Assembly (NCBI RefSeq): GCF_017094465.1
Contig: NZ_CP064791.1
Coordinates: 1,116,001 to 1,180,000 of the forward strand
DNA: 64,000 nt
Origin: Halapricum desulfuricans
Lineage (GTDB): Archaea; Halobacteriota; Halobacteria; Halobacteriales; Haloarculaceae
Direction of reading: 5' to 3'
The position numbers and the translations under genes are program-made. Within the stretch, counting starts at the first letter, position 1. Each line of letters starts with the position of its first letter. The notes beneath the pieces were generated by a model, which saw only the letters and a program-made list of their open reading frames with translations, did not search any database and was not told the origin of the DNA. This document shows positions 12,181 to 20,283 of the stretch, one piece after another.

Positions 12181-13038
12181 TCAGAACCATTCACGGGCCT
12201 TCAGGCGAGCCGTCAACTGTATGCTCTTGCGAAGTCCGCGGCGGACGACCCCGCCTGAATTCGGCACACCCTCTCCATCCTCATACTCCAGTCCGCGGAC
12301 GACCGTGACGGGGATCTGTTCGTCCGCCTGTCCGAACAGCAATGCTGACCCGGCAGTAAGTTCGTCTGCGATGAGGTCAACGCCGCCGACCTTCGGCGCA
12401 CCATATAGATCTGTCTGTCCAAAGTTGCTATCGATCGCTTCGATCCCTGCACAGCCGATCGCCAGATCCATCGAACCCGGGCCGGCAATTTCCGAGTCAG
12501 CCAGGACGACGGCCACGTCTGCGTCTGTCTGTGCTTCGATCCCTTCGCGGAGGCGACGGGCACTCTCGTCGGGATCGTCCGGCAGCAGCGTCATCATCCC
12601 GTCCGGACTGTTTGACCAATCGACACCCGCGTTCGTACAGAGTCGACCGTTACGCTCGGTCACGAGCATCGCTGGAACGTCAGCAAGTGCTTCCTGCGCC
12701 GCTTCAGGGTCGACAGCGTGTTCCAACAGCACGTCTTCGCCGATCTCTGCGATCGGGACCGCACCGATGACCTCGCTTTCATCGTAGATGACGGCCACTT
12801 CCCGTGGATCAATGCCGGTGACATCGGCCACTCGGTGGTCGCGGTCAGTAACTTCGACCTCATCAGCTTCGACAAGTCGATTCTCGGCGAACGATACGAC
12901 CTTCGCGGTAACGACGACGATGTCACCGTCTGCCAGGGGATACTCTTCAGCCGTCGTTTCGACGATACGGCCGACGAGATCGTCGTTTGGCTGGACCCGC
13001 CCAATATCAAGCCCGTGGAATGTTAGTTCTGACATCAT
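12181..13038 (-). CDS. CofE-like coenzyme F420 gamma-glutamyl ligase family protein
   Basis: 285 residues of the F420_ligase family (CofE), which adds glutamate to F420-0 using GTP. Recognisable segments are LADGDIVVVTAKVVSFAENR near the N-terminus, NAGVDWSNSP, MDLAIGCAGIEAID, and DLYGAPKVGGVDLIADELTAGSALLFGQ followed by PVTVVRG. The usual TDSFGRPWR-type motif reads VLADSEIAGPGSM here, so a residue set normally near the active site is altered. It may be a paralog with another acceptor rather than the housekeeping CofE. Two adjacent Met codons (13038, 13035) are possible starts. It stands alone, 125 bp from the HTH gene. Confidence 0.72.
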   Translation of the reverse strand: MMSELTFHGLDIGRVQPNDDLVGRIVETTAEEYPLADGDIVVVTAKVVSFAENRLVEADEVEVTDRDHRVADVTGIDPREVAVIYDESEVIGAVPIAEIGEDVLLEHAVDPEAAQEALADVPAMLVTERNGRLCTNAGVDWSNSPDGMMTLLPDDPDESARRLREGIEAQTDADVAVVLADSEIAGPGSMDLAIGCAGIEAIDSNFGQTDLYGAPKVGGVDLIADELTAGSALLFGQADEQIPVTVVRGLEYEDGEGVPNSGGVVRRGLRKSIQLTARLKAREWF

Positions 13039-13163
13039 TTAAATATCGGAAATAGCACCCTTCAACGCTGGGAAGATTGCATATCGATGAGAATAGACGA
13101 GATCTTTCGAGATACGTTCGCTCAGTCAGCCGATTATATTGAGAGAATACTAACTATATCTCG

Positions 13164-13442
13164 TCATCGCTCGAGTGGAGCTCGTGTATCAGTCGGAATG
13201 GGCGTCCCGGCTGGCTCTGTATCAGCGACATCAGTGTCCGCGGGGACGACCCAGACGCGCTCGTTTCCGAATGTTTTGCTTTCGATAGCTCCGTCCCGTT
13301 CCAGATCACGTAACTTCTCGGCCACCGTCTCGTAGGAGTCCGAGACGACATCCGCAACATCTTGCGTTGTCGTCATCCCCCCAGCATCAGTCATCTCCCC
13401 TTCTTTCACCGCCTTGAGAAGTGTTTGTGGGTCTGTTGTCAT
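13164..13442 (-). CDS. small winged-helix/HTH DNA-binding protein
   Basis: A 92-residue protein from the ATG at 13442 (MTTDPQTLL). The frame continues upstream to 13511, but that part has no protein character. Residues 20-70 look like a winged helix: a first helix, a recognition helix in VADVVSDSYETVAEKLRDLERDG, and a wing strand pair around IESKTFGNERVWVV. The C-terminus is a short Pro/Thr-rich tail. Such single-domain wHTH proteins are common haloarchaeal transcription regulators of unknown target. It is a single-gene unit on the minus strand between the CofE-like gene and the divergent metallo-hydrolase. Confidence 0.65.
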   Translation of the reverse strand: MTTDPQTLLKAVKEGEMTDAGGMTTTQDVADVVSDSYETVAEKLRDLERDGAIESKTFGNERVWVVPADTDVADTEPAGTPIPTDTRAPLER

Positions 13443-13602
13443 TATACAATGTGGTATGAGTTGACAAGGAATAACTCTGCTGGTCACGTAATTGACCGGT
13501 TCAGGCTCCATACGTAGCTATTCTGTCTAGGTCGGTCCGTCTACACGGCCGCCGCTCAGCCGGTCCGAAACGCTTAGCCGTGCCCGCGGCGGATCGACTG
13601 GT

Positions 13603-14430
13603 ATGGTACACAGCGACTGGGGAGACTGGCTCCCGCGTGCGATTGAGGACGCTGATCCCGACGGCGTCGCGATCTGGTATCTCGGCTGCAACGGCTTCGC
13701 TCTCAAGGCCGACGACGGGACGACGCTGTTCGTCGATCCCTATCTCGGCACTGGTGATCCGCCCCGAACAGTCCGGATGATTCCGGTACCGTTCGATCCC
13801 GAGGACGTCGGTCCCGTCGACGCGGTACTGGCCACTCACGAACACAGTGACCACGTCCACGGCGAGTCGACCGCGCCACTCCTCGCCGATTCGGACGCAT
13901 CCTTCTACGCACCGGACGACAGCCTCGCGGTCGCACGCGAGGCGGGCTGGGACGATCGGTGGGATCTCGATACCGATCAGTACGTCGAGGTCGAGGACGG
14001 CGATACCTTCGAACTCGGATCGCTGACGGTCAACGTCGAGCCCGCGAACGACCCGGACGCGACCCACCCTGTCGCCTACGTTTTCGAACACGACGCCGGA
14101 ACGTTCGTCCACGGCGGCGACGCCCGTCCCGGGGCCTTCGAGTCCGTCGGCGAGACCTACGACATCGATGTGGGGGCACTGGCGTTCGGCAGCGCCGGGA
14201 TGATTCAGGACAAACAGACTCGCGAACCCAAATACACCAAGTGGTACAACGACGAAAACGAGATTATTGAGGCCGCGACCGAGCTCCAACTTGAGACGCT
14301 CGTGCCGACTCACTGGGATATGTGGAAAGGATTGAATGCCGATCCAGCCGTTCTGCATCACCATGCTCGGAGTTTCGAGTATCCCGAGCAGGTCAACGTC
14401 ATCGAGATCGGCGATCGATTCGACCTGTAG
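13603..14430 (+). CDS. metallo-beta-lactamase-fold hydrolase, UlaG-like
   Basis: 275 residues. After an N-terminal segment, VAIWYLGCNGFALKADDGTTLFVDPYLG matches the UlaG-like branch of the metallo-beta-lactamase fold. The metal motif THEHSDHVHG gives His79, His81, Asp83 and His84; VHGGDARPG supplies a further His/Asp, and PTHWDMWKG a late His. The family includes lactonases and other hydrolases, so the substrate is unknown. The last 34 codons (14329-14430) are duplicated 182 bp downstream. The first 35 bp of this tail are identical to the copy while the rest differs at 14 positions, suggesting the 3' end was exchanged by recombination. Confidence 0.85.
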   Translation: MVHSDWGDWLPRAIEDADPDGVAIWYLGCNGFALKADDGTTLFVDPYLGTGDPPRTVRMIPVPFDPEDVGPVDAVLATHEHSDHVHGESTAPLLADSDASFYAPDDSLAVAREAGWDDRWDLDTDQYVEVEDGDTFELGSLTVNVEPANDPDATHPVAYVFEHDAGTFVHGGDARPGAFESVGETYDIDVGALAFGSAGMIQDKQTREPKYTKWYNDENEIIEAATELQLETLVPTHWDMWKGLNADPAVLHHHARSFEYPEQVNVIEIGDRFDL

Positions 14431-14455
14431 GGCTGGGGCGGGGCGGTCTTTTTCC

Positions 14456-14501
14456 CCACGTTTTTGCGCGAGTGACCGGCGGGAACGAGCGGAAAAAGTG
14501 G
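14456..14501. repeat. 46-bp inverted-repeat element between duplicated gene ends (T-run/A-run type)
   Basis: Arms CCACGTTTTT and AAAAAGTGG flank a core containing GCGAGTG, GGAACG and GAGCG. A further CTTTTT lies just upstream (14448-14453). The layout closely parallels the two 61-bp elements downstream of argF (61074-61134 and 61241-61301), where arms CCAGCTTTTT/AAAAAGGTGG enclose a similar core when read in gene sense. It may act as a terminator in either direction. Its place exactly between two copies of a gene's 3' end is what stands out. Confidence 0.6.
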
Positions 14502-14510
14502 TCTCGGAAG

Positions 14511-14612
14511 GGATTGAATGCCGATCCAGCCGTTCTGCATCACCACGCCCAGAGCTTCGAGTACCCCAACCAGGTCAACGTCGTCGAGATCGGCGACCGG
14601 TTTAATTTGTAG
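14511..14612 (+). pseudogene. duplicated 3' end of the metallo-hydrolase gene (34 codons)
   Basis: A 102-bp copy of 14329-14430 ending at the same stop codon. It encodes the same tail with four amino-acid changes (Arg/Gln, Glu/Asn, Ile/Val, Asp/Asn); most other differences are synonymous, showing that both versions were once under coding selection. It has no start or upstream coding part. The identical first 35 bp followed by a diverged 67 bp marks a recombination boundary. It is probably what is left of an older allele or paralog. Confidence 0.85.
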
Positions 14613-14700
14613 TAGCGTGTCATAGAGACGTTCTTGACCTCTCTCCTGTCGGGTAGTACGAGTGAACTGATTGCTCACCTTCCCGGTCATATTCCATAGC

Positions 14701-14707
14701 TATATTA
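14701..14707 (+). promoter_or_regulatory. TATA box of the universal stress gene at 14733
   Basis: TATATTA centred 29 nt before the ATG at 14733, supporting a leaderless transcript and that start codon. Confidence 0.6.
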
Positions 14708-14732
14708 TCCTTCCCGTGTCATTTTCTGACAG

Positions 14733-15146
14733 ATGTACCGGGCGCTGATGCCGATTGATGGGAGTGAGTCACGCGGGGAGGCACAGGCCGAGGCAGTCAT
14801 TGGGCTCCCGAATGCAACAGAGAGCGTCACCGTAACACTGCTGTACGTGTTTGACGACGCAGACCAGATGGAGACGACTGCTCCCGACGAACTCGACGGT
14901 GGACGGGTAGCAGCGACCCGATTACAGGACGCAGGCATCGCCGTTGAGCAATCCTCCCGTGTGGGCGATCCGGCGACGGAAATCCTTGCTGCAGCCGACG
15001 AGCTCGACGCCGATCAAATCGTTCTGGGCGGCCGAAAGAGATCACCGGTCGGCGCGATTCTCTTCGGTAGCGTCAGCCAATCCGTGATCGTTGACGCTGA
15101 TCGACCGGTCACCATCACGGGCGACGCAACGTCACACTCTGCGTAA
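14733..15146 (+). CDS. universal stress protein, UspA family
   Basis: A 137-residue single Usp domain. The N-terminus MYRALMPIDGSESR is the usual first strand and nucleotide-contacting Asp. The C-terminal ATP-binding signature G-2x-G-9x-G-(S/T) reads GGRKRSPVGAILFGSVSQSVI. ATP-binding Usp proteins respond to stress and growth arrest; a specific role is not known. It has its own promoter 29 nt upstream and stands alone between the duplicated metallo-hydrolase tail and a Tat lipoprotein. A second Usp lies at 31102. Confidence 0.88.
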   Translation: MYRALMPIDGSESRGEAQAEAVIGLPNATESVTVTLLYVFDDADQMETTAPDELDGGRVAATRLQDAGIAVEQSSRVGDPATEILAAADELDADQIVLGGRKRSPVGAILFGSVSQSVIVDADRPVTITGDATSHSA

Positions 15147-15204
15147 CGCACCCGGCGAGAAGGGCGGTCTTATCGAATCTGATCAATGTGTGCTATAGCC
15201 ACAA

Positions 15205-15212
15205 CTTATATA
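15205..15212 (+). promoter_or_regulatory. TATA box of the lipoprotein gene at 15237
   Basis: CTTATATA centred 28 nt before the ATG at 15237. This spacing decides for 15237 over the upstream in-frame ATG at 15186, which would place the promoter inside the gene. Confidence 0.65.
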
Positions 15213-15236
15213 CTCGCACTACATATAATATTAGTG

Positions 15237-17066
15237 ATGGATAAAGCACGTCACACAAATACCAAAACGCTAGATCGCACCGACAGTATCCCACTGGCGA
15301 CGCGTCGGGCGGTCCTCGCAGCGGGTGGCGCTGTCAGTCTCGGGAGTCTCGCTGGCTGTACTGCGCTCGATGGGCTCCTCGACCGAGCCAGTGAGGAAGC
15401 GGTTGGGACCAAGATGGCGTCGCCAGCCGGCTTCTACGCCGGTGGCGAGATCGACGGCGTGACGGCGTACAGGAGCGGACCGGTCGACGTCCGGTTCGTC
15501 CCACCGAGCCTGCGGGCCGAGGACCGACGCATCGACGTCGACGGCTGGAGCACGACCACGACCACGAAGGCCCAGGATTACAACTCCTCGCGCTCGAACA
15601 AGCCGAGTTCGATCTGGGTCCCTGACCCCCGCGACGAGGACTCCGACGACGACGGTATCGGGACGCTCGCGGGGGTGCTGGATACCGAACGGGCGCTGTT
15701 GGTCTACGCGGACGCCGCCATCGAAGCCATCGACGGCCGGTCGGGCGACGACGCGACGGCCGCGCTCGAGGCGTTCAGCAAGGCGACGACGACGGTGCGG
15801 GGCGCGCTCGAAGACTGCCCCTCCGAGACCTGCAAGACCGTTTACGAACACGCGGACGGACGGAAGGACCTCGCCCAAGACGCAAGCGACGCCGTGGGCG
15901 CAGGCGAGTGGGACAGCGCGCGACGGTCCATGCAACAGGCTCGCCGGATCGTCCAGGGCGACATCGAGCGAATCCGCGGCGATCTCGACAGCGACGGCGA
16001 CGGACTCCTCGACGGCACGGAGCCCCTCTACAACTACCTCGACGGGGAGCCGACGATCGGCGAGCACTTCGTCGTCAGTCTCCCGGACGCCAGCGTGCGG
16101 GGCGGCGGTCCGGCACTGGCCGAGGAACTCACGCCCGAGCGCGTCCTCGCATACTTCTTCGGCGAACGGGACGCCGATAGCTGTGGCGAGAGCGACCGGA
16201 CCGTCGCGGTCCACCGGGATCTATCCTGCCGGGACCTCCTCACGTCGACGCTCGAACTCGACGACGGCTTCGACCTCGGCCGGCCCGACGACATCGACAA
16301 GAAGGATATCCGTCGCGGCGTCGCCGCCTTCGGAACCTCGGGCGGCGTCGTCGTCACCGGGGCATCGCCGGCGGCGGTCGCCGAGCCGATGGCGCGGGTC
16401 TCGGGCCGATTGCCTGGGGAGAGCGATTGTTGCTTCGACTATAATAATTCCTGGGGCGAGGAGACCACCTCCGGGGAGGCCGCCGTGTCCGAGACGTTCG
16501 TCATCCCTGTGGCGGCGACGCCGGCGGACAGTCCGCTCGCGATGCCCGCGCTATTCTTCGTGCGTCGGATCCGCCACGAGGACCAGCTGCTGTTTGTCGG
16601 CGGCTGGCAGATCGACGACGGCGCGCTCTACGAGAACAGCGCGACGCTGTTGACCGCCGACGGTCCGAACGTCGTCGCGGGGGTCACGCGTTCGGACATC
16701 GAGGACGGCGGTATCGACCTCGAGAAGATAGTAAGCGACGACAGAGTCGTTCGGAAAAAACCCGGGCGGACGAAATACTCGAACATCACGCTACAGAGCC
16801 AGTACGACCCGGACGCCGAGTACTTGCCCGCGGGTGCCCACTCAGTGTGCAGGGACGACGGCGACCTGTACTGCTGGGGAGTCCAGTCCCACGAATCACT
16901 CGCACGGCACGACACTCGCGACTGTGACGACGACGACGCCGATGTCCGCCCATCGGCCGTCACAACGGCGCTCGATGCACCGGTACTGCACCTCGTCGGG
17001 GCTGGCAAGGCATCGAACGACGTGAAGTTCAAGGCGGGGGCGGAGCTGTCGAAATCAGTCAACTGA
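15237..17066 (+). CDS. large Tat-exported lipoprotein, unknown function
   Basis: 609 residues from the leaderless ATG at 15237. The N-terminus has a twin-arginine (ATRRAVLAAGG), a hydrophobic stretch and the lipobox LAGC, so it is exported folded and lipid-anchored outside the cell, as typical for haloarchaea. The mature part contains two Asp-rich, calcium-loop-like segments (DPRDEDSDDDGIG and DLDSDGDGLLDG) and several Cys residues (e.g. EDCPSETC, ESDCCFDY, CRDDGDLYCWG) that could pair outside the cell. No catalytic family is recognised. It sits where S12/S7 ribosomal genes normally follow nusA, but on the opposite strand. Confidence 0.75.
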   Translation: MDKARHTNTKTLDRTDSIPLATRRAVLAAGGAVSLGSLAGCTALDGLLDRASEEAVGTKMASPAGFYAGGEIDGVTAYRSGPVDVRFVPPSLRAEDRRIDVDGWSTTTTTKAQDYNSSRSNKPSSIWVPDPRDEDSDDDGIGTLAGVLDTERALLVYADAAIEAIDGRSGDDATAALEAFSKATTTVRGALEDCPSETCKTVYEHADGRKDLAQDASDAVGAGEWDSARRSMQQARRIVQGDIERIRGDLDSDGDGLLDGTEPLYNYLDGEPTIGEHFVVSLPDASVRGGGPALAEELTPERVLAYFFGERDADSCGESDRTVAVHRDLSCRDLLTSTLELDDGFDLGRPDDIDKKDIRRGVAAFGTSGGVVVTGASPAAVAEPMARVSGRLPGESDCCFDYNNSWGEETTSGEAAVSETFVIPVAATPADSPLAMPALFFVRRIRHEDQLLFVGGWQIDDGALYENSATLLTADGPNVVAGVTRSDIEDGGIDLEKIVSDDRVVRKKPGRTKYSNITLQSQYDPDAEYLPAGAHSVCRDDGDLYCWGVQSHESLARHDTRDCDDDDADVRPSAVTTALDAPVLHLVGAGKASNDVKFKAGAELSKSVN

Positions 17067-17580: not shown

Positions 17581-20283
17581 TCAGTCTGCGGAGCCGCCCT
17601 TGCCGGGGTTCATCCGCAGGTCCACGTCGCCGGTACCGAGCTTGATCGGCTTGCCGACGATGACGTTCTCAGTGACACCGTCGAGTCCGTCGACCTCGCC
17701 GTGGATCGCGGCGTCGAGCAGGTGCGAGACGGTGACTTCGAAGGCCGCTCGCGCCAGGACGCTGTCCTTGTTGCCGGAGATGCCGTGGCGACCGATCGAC
17801 TCGATCTCGCCATCGTTGGTCATGATGTCCGCGACCAACATCAGGTGACGGACGTTGACGTCGTCAAGCCCCTGTTCCGCGAGGGTGTCCATCGTCTCGT
17901 TGATAATCGCCTCGCGGGCGGCCTCGACGCCCAGCTGGCGATAGATCTCGTGGATGTTGTTACACGTCGTCCGGGAGGCGTCGACGCCCTCGATGTCCAG
18001 GACGTCGCCGAGGGCTGATCCCTCGGTGTACAGGACGAACTCCTCGCCCTCTTCCGTGTCCTCCTTGCGGATGACGACGCGGGAGACGTCCTCGATCCCC
18101 TTGAAGACGATCTCACGCAGGTCCTCGACCAGCTGCAGCAGGTCCCGGTAGGACGGCTCCTCGGGACCGAACTCGATGGCTGTGCCGGACTGGCGAGTCT
18201 GGACGCCCAGCGCGCCCTCGATAGTCGAGGCGATCTCCTCGGCGACGACCTCGACGTCGTCGACCGTTGGCCACCGTTCAGCCAGTGTGTCGGGATTGAG
18301 GTCGATCTGGACGAGCATGTCCGCGACGTTCGTCGAGATGTCCCCCAGTGCGAGGATCTTTGTCGCCTCGATCTTCCAGACGACCTCGTGGGCACGCTCG
18401 CGCTCGGTCGCGTACTCGTCCTCGAGGTGGACCGTCATCATCGGGGTGTCCGGGGTCTTCCGGGCGTCCACCAGTTCGATGAGTCGCGGCAGCCCCTGGG
18501 TCACGTCGATCTCGGCGACCCCCGCGTAGTGGAACGTGTTCATGGTGTTGTGGGTCACGACGCCCTGTGCCGTGGTGAACGTCTCCAGTCCGGTCACCGA
18601 GAAGTCGTAGACGTACTCGTGGTTGGGTTCGATCGTCTCGATCGATTCGATCCGTTCCCAGACGATATCGCCATCGACAGCCTGTTCAAGTGTGTCGAGT
18701 TCCGACGGATTCTCGTCAGTCCGCTCGTCGATCATCTCGACGAGCGAAGCAAGACGGTTGCGCCCGATCCGCTGGCGCTTGTGGGCACTGTTGATCTGAC
18801 GCGAGGGAATTCCAGCTTCCTTGGCAGCGGTTTTCAGCGACTCGCCGAAGTTCGGAATCTGGTCACTCGCGTCCGGTCCGTCGACATCGACTTCAGTGGC
18901 CAGCGCAGCCAGTTCGCTGCCACGCTCGCCGACCATCCCAACTCGATCCGCGAATGCCGGGACGAACTTCTTCGGGACGCGAAGCGTCTTGGAATCGTCC
19001 TGCTGCCCGAAGGTCGCGTAGATGTCGAATCGTGACAGGAGCAGGGAAACACCATCGACCAGTTCGTCGCTTGTCGAACTGGCCCGAACGGCGTTTTTGC
19101 TGACGTTCCCGTCGCCGCTGAAGTAGCCTGAGAGCAGGCCACGGACAAACTCAGTCGTCGCACCGAACGCGAAGTCCGGAACGACCTTCGAACCGTCCTC
19201 AGTACAGGTGGCTCGCAGGAAGTCCACCAGAACGGTGCCGTTGACGCGGATGTCATAGCCAGTCGCGAATCCGCTGTCGTTCTCGTACTCGTTCACCGAG
19301 AGGTCGAAGCGCCCAGCGAACGCGCGAACGCGATTCTGGAACGTCTCTTCGACGTTCGAAATCGAGACGTAGTGATCTGTCAGGCTCCCTTCAGCGAGGA
19401 ACGCGCCGAGGAAGAATCCGGTCTCCTCGTCGAGCGGGAACCGTTCGGGTAGCCCTACAGTTCCCTGTACCGGGTAGACGGCGTGTTCGTCGAGGTCGCC
19501 AGCTTCGAGCGCCTGGCGTTTGTTCCGGATCTGATCTTCACCACCCGGCAGTGTGGCTGTCCCGCCATCGGTCAGCGCCGACGTGTACCAGTAGTCGCTC
19601 GTCGGGAGGTGCTCGCGAAGGTCGACAGTTTCCTGCTGGTCGCTGTCAAACGACCGGACGACTGGCAGCCAGTCGCCCTCGTCGAGGTCATCGCCCGCGA
19701 CGGGTACGACCTCGTTGTCCTGTCGAGTCACGAACGAGTGTGCTCTCGTCGCTCGGATCGACCGCCCCGATTCAAGCTCGAACCGGAGCAGTTCGTCCGG
19801 TGCTTCGTGGCGACTCACCTGTTCGAGCGGTTTCCATTCGGTACGCTCGTCTGCACGCAACGAGAGCACTTCCATGCCCTCTGGGCCGGACGTAACTTCG
19901 TGACCGTCGACGTCGGCGGTCTCACGTACGTCCATGAGGCCATCGATCAGCGAGCCGATCTCGGTGACGTCAGTCTCGCCGTCGCGCCGGACGAGAACGT
20001 CCTCATCGTAGGGAACGCTCATCTGCGTTCCGGGTTCCCCGATCGACTGGGCGGAGACGGTCCCGACCGGATCCAGTGGGTCGACGCGCGTGTCGACGTA
20101 CCTGGATTCGACTGCGGAGGCAATCTCCTCAACGGCGTCGAGGTCCATCCCGCCGCGGTCGTCGATCGTCTCGTAGAGTTCGTTCTTCAGGCGGCGCGGC
20201 AGATCCGTGTCCTCGACGAGAACTTCGACGTCCTCGTCGACGTACTCGAATCGATCCGTAGCGTGGTATTGTGTTTCGCTCAT
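17581..20283 (-). CDS. rpoA2: RNA polymerase subunit A'' precursor, interrupted by an intein
   Basis: A 900-residue precursor. Residues 1-88 and 580-900 are the A'' exteins, which join to a 409-residue subunit of ordinary size. Residues 89-579 are an in-frame intein. The insertion point is after SIGEPGTQM and before [12 protein letters not shown], i.e. the trigger-loop region that moves at each nucleotide addition. Without splicing the polymerase would be inactive. The C-extein carries the conserved A'' segments through [15 protein letters not shown] and [12 protein letters not shown]. The ATG shares one base with the rpoA1 stop (TGATG). Confidence 0.95.
18547..20019 (-). mobile_element. LAGLIDADG (DOD) homing-endonuclease intein in rpoA2
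   Basis: 491 residues. It starts with Ser89 (block [15 protein letters not shown]). Block B has the TxxH motif T179-R-A-H182. Two dodecapeptide motifs of the endonuclease are present, [10 protein letters not shown] (291-300) and [10 protein letters not shown] (383-392), both keeping the acidic residue. The end is block F ([16 protein letters not shown]) and block G VVTHN, with Thr as the +1 residue. All splicing residues are plausible (Ser1, His-Asn end, Thr+1). The endonuclease would cut intein-less rpoA2 alleles. RpoA'' inteins are known in other archaea, for example Methanocaldococcus jannaschii. Confidence 0.94.

Follow-up and report, generated by a model that had tools for sequence, protein, structure and literature searches.

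We analyzed a 64,000-nt stretch of the genome of Halapricum desulfuricans (hereafter, the window; positions are counted from its first letter), in which a metallo-hydrolase gene is followed by a second, diverged copy of its own 3΄ end. This locus raises the question of whether the second tail is the remnant of one exchange between alleles, as a sequence-only reading had proposed, or the product of a process that acts on many gene ends. As that reading had stated, the 102-bp tail at 14329-14430 recurs at 14511-14612 (start-to-start distance, 182 bp), with TAG at the end of both copies, identity at the first 35 positions and differences at 14 of the remaining 67. The differences had been called mostly silent, which holds, though not strongly, for the 12 changed codons (eight synonymous and four residue-changing). 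The true match begins 5 nt to the left of the start given there and covers 107 nt with 86% identity (Table 1). A search of the same genome with the protein of the gene returned only the gene and the second tail (E 1.8e-14), with no further copy of the tail elsewhere in that genome, and chance is therefore excluded as the source of tail 2. The gap between the two copies, D1 and D2, is only 75 bp and holds neither the integrase gene nor the cargo of an integrative element. The sequence-only reading missed that this spacer is one copy of a dispersed repeat, a stem-loop element that we call E; the 4 nt TCTC (14502-14505) separate it from tail 2, the offset from the GTGG of its right arm to the tail being exactly 4 nt.

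Table 1. Features at the metallo-hydrolase locus, in window coordinates
Feature	Position	Strand	Basis
Metallo-beta-lactamase-fold hydrolase gene (275 aa)	13603..14430	+	ORF; Pfam Lactamase_B_2 E 1.3e-17, Lactamase_B_3 E 2.9e-9
D1 (tail 1), the gene's own 3΄ end, upstream copy	14324..14430	+	Repeat comparison, 107 nt, 86% to D2
Short 3΄ untranslated stretch, stop codon to stem-loop	14431..14448	+	Sequence
E, dispersed stem-loop element	14449..14501	+	Arms: constant left TTTTTCCCCACGTTTTTGC, constant right AAAAAGTGG
D2 (tail 2), diverged second copy of the gene 3΄ end	14506..14612	+	Repeat comparison; protein search
Universal stress protein (UspA-like), downstream neighbor	14733..15146	+	Pfam Usp E 1.4e-20

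The window also contains, at 17581-20283 on the minus strand, an RNA polymerase Rpb1 domain 5 gene with an intein and a LAGLIDADG domain, which we take to be the A'' subunit.

E consists of TTTTTCCCCAnGTTTTTGC, a variable stem and then AAAAAGTGG, and is a dispersed haloarchaeal stem-loop, mostly 53-87 nt in length. A DNA search of the same genome with the region found five further places, which matched the spacer only, and the left arm (at most two mismatches) gave 115 matches in six Halapricum genomes, with G003 holding the most copies, compared with 0 for a reversed-pattern control. The 64,000 nt of the window contain a single copy (0 expected). With one mismatch, the left arm was present in 69 of 116 family genomes, and the right arm lay within 130 nt of it at 180 of 197 haloarchaeal matches as against 0 of 24 bacterial or viral-contig matches. 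A virus link was rejected, the four viral-contig matches grouping with the bacterial chance matches in this set of 24. E is common in Haloarculaceae and their relatives. No relevant Rfam match was obtained for positions 13000-16000 of the window or for nine loci.

The CCAC/TTTTT and AAAAA/GTGG arms of E pair with each other. Because the inner stems differ in length, the RNAalifold consensus comprised 12 pairs only, four of which had changes on both sides (weak covariation support), and we therefore folded single copies instead. Folded singly, the stems are strong (median z -4.5; 143 of 157 copies below -2); the copy in the window has a good folding energy, but its outer pairing is not the usual one. 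Long forms of about 120-143 nt (L041, L069, L072, L134, L236 and L242) have an additional, branched domain that includes stretches such as ATACCATGCGAACGG...CCGTGAGCAGA, for which Rfam gave no match.

We further located E relative to genes. Where a copy has no duplication and its right-hand neighbor is a minus-strand gene, the distance from GTGG to the stop codon of that gene is 0-7 nt in 36 of 48 cases in Halapricum and 47 of 61 in other genera, as counted by hand (60 of the 61 inspected) on genes called by a GC-bias rule, of which single calls may err. E combines a stable stem-loop with T-runs and stands directly behind genes, as in terminator-type structures; it is probably a short structured gene-end element and is predicted to act as a transcription terminator for both strands. 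The T-stretch/hairpin terminators of Haloferax volcanii, as described in the available part of the report (PMC7237163), likewise have T-runs behind genes and hairpins near 3΄ ends, but they are single signals, whereas E is one recognizable intergenic family linked to gene-end duplication. In Halapricum, E is often preceded by another post-stop module, GCATACG-hairpin-CGTTTCAC (e.g. L054, L057 and L085), which also occurs behind genes without E and is perhaps a separate gene-end signal.

The duplication of a gene end beside E is not confined to the metallo-hydrolase. In the same genome, a direct repeat also brackets the matching spacer at L002, L003, L004 and L006, and at L003, whose gene we take to be gyrA, this repeat is the gene 3΄ end. 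Among the 91 usable Halapricum copies (those with a right arm and flanks), 32 have to the right of E a direct repeat of upstream sequence, mostly of a gene 3΄ end, and the other 59 have no repeat above the threshold; the controls gave 34 of 1353 for mismatched flank pairs, a value inflated by related loci from different species, and 6 of 388 for random positions. A first test, on 106 distinct left arms in Halapricum loci (seven dropped for short flanks and 99 kept), placed 30 copies above the 99% point of mismatched flanks. A short-match test found a repeat at 32 of 88 copies in Halapricum (control, 6/261) and, by threshold, at 4 or 5 of 85 in other genera (control, 0 or 1 of 250). Other genera thus have few repeats (5/85) despite the frequency of E in them, indicating that a factor other than E plays a part. 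Five of 117 named and viral collection loci reached a score of 50, two of these being Halapricum loci already counted.

The geometry of these repeats is one-sided. All but one of the 32 begin no more than 12 nt from GTGG, most often 4 nt, and at duplication-bearing copies the second tail takes the position otherwise held by the stop codon of a right-hand minus-strand gene. The duplicated stretch is 24 to 160 bp long in the matches obtained, and its left boundary is ragged, with 0 to 158 nt between the end of D1 and the T-run. The fixed point is therefore the right end of E, and the left boundary of the duplication is variable. Several loci (L015, L020, L047, L094 and L100) contain tail-E-tail-E arrays. 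This recurrence pattern is well supported, and since about one-third of the E copies of Halapricum show the arrangement, a recurrent process, and not a one-off swap, seems to have produced the second tail. For 10 gene ends beside E without a duplication (G000 and G003), no convincing distant copy of the gene end was found, and an origin from a large integrated element whose second tail lies far off was rejected on this basis.

We compared seven gene ends (loci A to G) among six species, in total 41 sequences, with G004 cut by a contig end at locus A and left out at locus F. At loci A, B, D, F and G, the order gene-E-second tail in one species corresponds to a single tail without E before the same neighbor in another, and at loci B and G the second tails of two species do not share a starting point within the gene. 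In a further species at loci D and F, an alignable E stands at this gene, a second tail is absent and the right neighbor is a different one, so that three states are seen: gene-E-other neighbor, gene-native neighbor without E, and gene-E-tail 2-native neighbor. Judged from these alignments, the third state resembles a fusion of an allele carrying E with one lacking it. One locus reads gene-E-neighbor in G000 and (tail-E)x3 before the same neighbor in G001, a tandem duplication with the break at the right end of E. E-less sites may also arise by deletion between repeats, and the direction is therefore not fixed by single sites; at the metallo-hydrolase, the outgroups fix it.

The metallo-hydrolase gene is present in 111 of the 116 family genomes. 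Among the matches listed, only those of G000, the genome of the window, and G003 include a second tail, and these two score far above the weakest listed; the matches in G106 and G094 are pieces of split or paralogous genes. In 24 orthologues of other genera, read by eye, the gene is never followed by E and almost always has a similar gene beginning shortly behind it. G003 retains this family-wide neighbor, that is, the native 3΄ context, behind its second tail. In G004, neither E nor a second tail follows the gene, and its right neighbor is the one that stands past D2 in G003; in G002 a decayed E follows without a second tail. The gene has moved away from the family-wide neighbor in G000, G001, G002 and G005, into different neighborhoods and with no visible remnant at the old place. 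At L008 in G005, about 130-460 bp past the metallo-hydrolase stop codon and behind a partial E, we observed tandem repeats of a tRNA-like 3΄ sequence (AGAAGAGCCAGAGACGGGATTGTGAACC...) that adjoin an apparently intact tRNA; this is another gene-end duplication, of a probable tRNA.

G003 has the same two tails as G000, with the duplication beginning at the same codon and with the same junction letters GTGGTCTCGGAA, which speaks for one old event. The inner sequence of E at the metallo-hydrolase differs between the two genomes though the junction is the same, which needs either a replacement of the E loop or two events at one spot.

We tentatively favor, at a little under an even chance, the reading that breaks occur preferentially at the right foot of E, that the broken end is rejoined to a sister or allelic chromosome within the upstream gene, and that gene conversion then homogenizes the copies. 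The breakpoint would be the foot of the right arm (GTGG plus about 4 nt), and the broken end would now and then be joined 35-160 bp or more upstream, inside the preceding gene, with the sister chromosome or the other allele of a polyploid cell as the partner. A partner with E would give a tandem array (tail-E)n, and a partner without E would give gene-E-second tail-native neighbor, as in the window. The second tail would not be needed, and could be kept alike for a long time by gene conversion between neighboring copies and between chromosome copies. In Haloferax volcanii, which has up to 20 genome copies, cut plasmids are repaired by microhomology end-joining with 3-5 bp, according to the available part of the report (PMC2700283). 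The E/D2 junctions that could be compared by eye are nearly blunt (about 0-2 nt of microhomology), and plain microhomology joining therefore fits badly. Breaks and duplications provoked by palindromes resemble our model, so far as the accessible portions of PMC7999016 and other reports describe them, in that a hairpin is a fragile site and the rearrangements are local; at E, however, the breakpoint varies by only a few nucleotides among about 30 loci, and the products are retained and homogenized across species.

The main rival is transposition with long duplications, which we regard as possible but doubtful: E would be a small mobile element inserted behind gene ends by a putative mover enzyme, and tail 2 an unusually long and variable target-site duplication. 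Such insertion would account for the sites at loci A, B, F and G, and at the metallo-hydrolase in G004, that lack E and have the stretch only once, for the sharp right end mostly 4 nt past GTGG, and for the different duplication starts in two species at loci B and G, where the same gene was affected. It would not account for the ragged left end, nor for the tandem arrays that end in E beside the neighbor, which are not an insertion product. Moreover, reverse transcriptase was found in 0 of the 6 genomes, and no IS200-type transposase match in G003, the genome richest in E. The domain Y1_Tnp occurs in 4 of the 6 genomes, and its absence from G003 makes a Y1 transposase unlikely as the present mover of E.

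Duplications of this length are also unlike every class of haloarchaeal mobile repeat treated in the part of PMC3119063 available to us, where duplications are either set by the transposase or absent. The MITEs, PATEs and SMRs of Haloquadratum walsbyi described there are, like E, short, non-coding, dispersed, palindromic and without a transposase gene of their own. The target duplications of MITEs follow the parent transposon, and PATEs and SMRs make none, whereas E is accompanied by duplications of tens of bp up to 160 bp with one sharp end. The stretch has no fixed length, as it has in MITEs; the presence of duplications, together with the distribution of Y1_Tnp, sets E apart from PATEs and IS605-type elements; and its location between genes beside stop codons, with duplications at the proportion given above, sets it apart from SMRs. 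The REP and REPIN palindromes of bacteria, as far as the sources at hand cover them, are high-copy extragenic palindromes as E is, but E differs from them in its length, its T-run arms, the 4-nt offset to duplicated host sequence and the lack of a link to a Y1 transposase (none in G003).

We consider it rather unlikely that E is a new kind of haloarchaeal element with a right foot that a dedicated, putative activity cuts at one fixed site, so that it would keep re-duplicating the 3΄ ends of the genes before it, spread to further gene ends and act as a hotspot at which gene neighborhoods are rejoined. A limited literature search (repeats, target duplications and motif letters) found no description of E or its duplications, which is no proof of their being unpublished, and the string 'Halo' appears nowhere in the text of the RepRanger report (PMC12306157).

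The mosaic identity of the two tails bears on breakage followed by conversion and on the explanation given in the sequence-only reading, framed here as one recent replacement of the gene by an allele from a relative, with the old tail left behind and no role for the spacer. Tails 1 and 2 differ at 6 of 102 positions in G003 and at 14 in G000, compared with 28 differences between the first tails of G000 and G003. Similarly, D1 and D2 are more alike within a genome than D1 is between species for gyrA, loci C and D and the L002/L039/L066 set. The exception is the locus set labeled "E", in which no difference separates G001 from G005, and G002 shows a tie (86% within, 36/42 between), with its D2 nearer to the D2 of G001/G005 (38/42) than to its own D1. 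Since tails are more alike within a genome than first copies are between species, the 35-bp identical block resembles a tract of gene conversion; the simplest reading of the abrupt change at position 35 is that it marks the edge of such a tract between two old copies, and under the breakage model the 35 positions would be the latest tract. Equalization of chromosome copies by gene conversion is reported for Haloferax volcanii in the available parts of PMC8223754 and PMC11276520.

The comparison of each tail with the gene body, which the sequence-only reading had proposed, favored neither tail, the body being equally far from G001, G002 and G005 (120, 123 and 121 of 726). At the 67 variable positions, tail 1 has 8 differences to G001/G005 as against 15 to G002, and tail 2 lies at a similar distance from all three genomes (14, 14 and 13 differences). 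At 5 of the 14 differing sites, tail 1 has the G001/G005 base and tail 2 the G002 base, and the mosaic pattern, read together with these sites, lends some support to an origin from two alleles. The involvement of recombination thus stands, in view of these five sites and of loci D and F. A recent single exchange does not, in view of the same two tails and junction in G003, the native 3΄ context behind tail 2 there and the same arrangement at 31 other E copies in the genus, and we judge this explanation quite improbable. Because G003 shares the tails and the junction, and because the tails resemble each other most within each genome, the two-tail structure is probably old, shared and homogenized.

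Retroposition, in which an RNA copy of E would be integrated by target-primed synthesis with variable duplications and a ragged left end, matches the one sharp and one ragged end, the variable duplication length and the orientation of E, which is sense relative to the gene before it in 20 of 25 duplication-bearing Halapricum copies. A retroposon would call for a reverse transcriptase, however, and RVT_1 was matched in 0 of 6 Halapricum genomes as against 3 of 14 control genomes; we rejected it as the main model and consider it highly improbable. Assembly artefact or chance can be practically dismissed: E copies do lie at contig ends in the fragmented genome G004, so that assembly is disturbed by E, but G001, G003 and G005, each assembled as a single contig, and G000, with two contigs, also have the structure, its copies being diverged and its loci orthologous. 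In G004, left arms of E lie within about 70 nt of the starts of contigs C45, C72, C159, C191, C206, C251 and C259, and E therefore seems to break short-read assemblies.

With these results, what seemed an isolated gene mosaic becomes one case of a recurrent process that is defined by sequence and remodels the 3΄ ends of genes across the genus. They also caution that E can be the source of second gene tails, of partial ORFs and of contig breaks in such genomes. If E is mobile, its long one-sided duplications fit none of the mobile repeat classes compared. If the right foot of E is indeed a programmed breakpoint, haloarchaea would offer many natural replicates for the study of hairpin-induced duplication and concerted evolution in a polyploid microbe.
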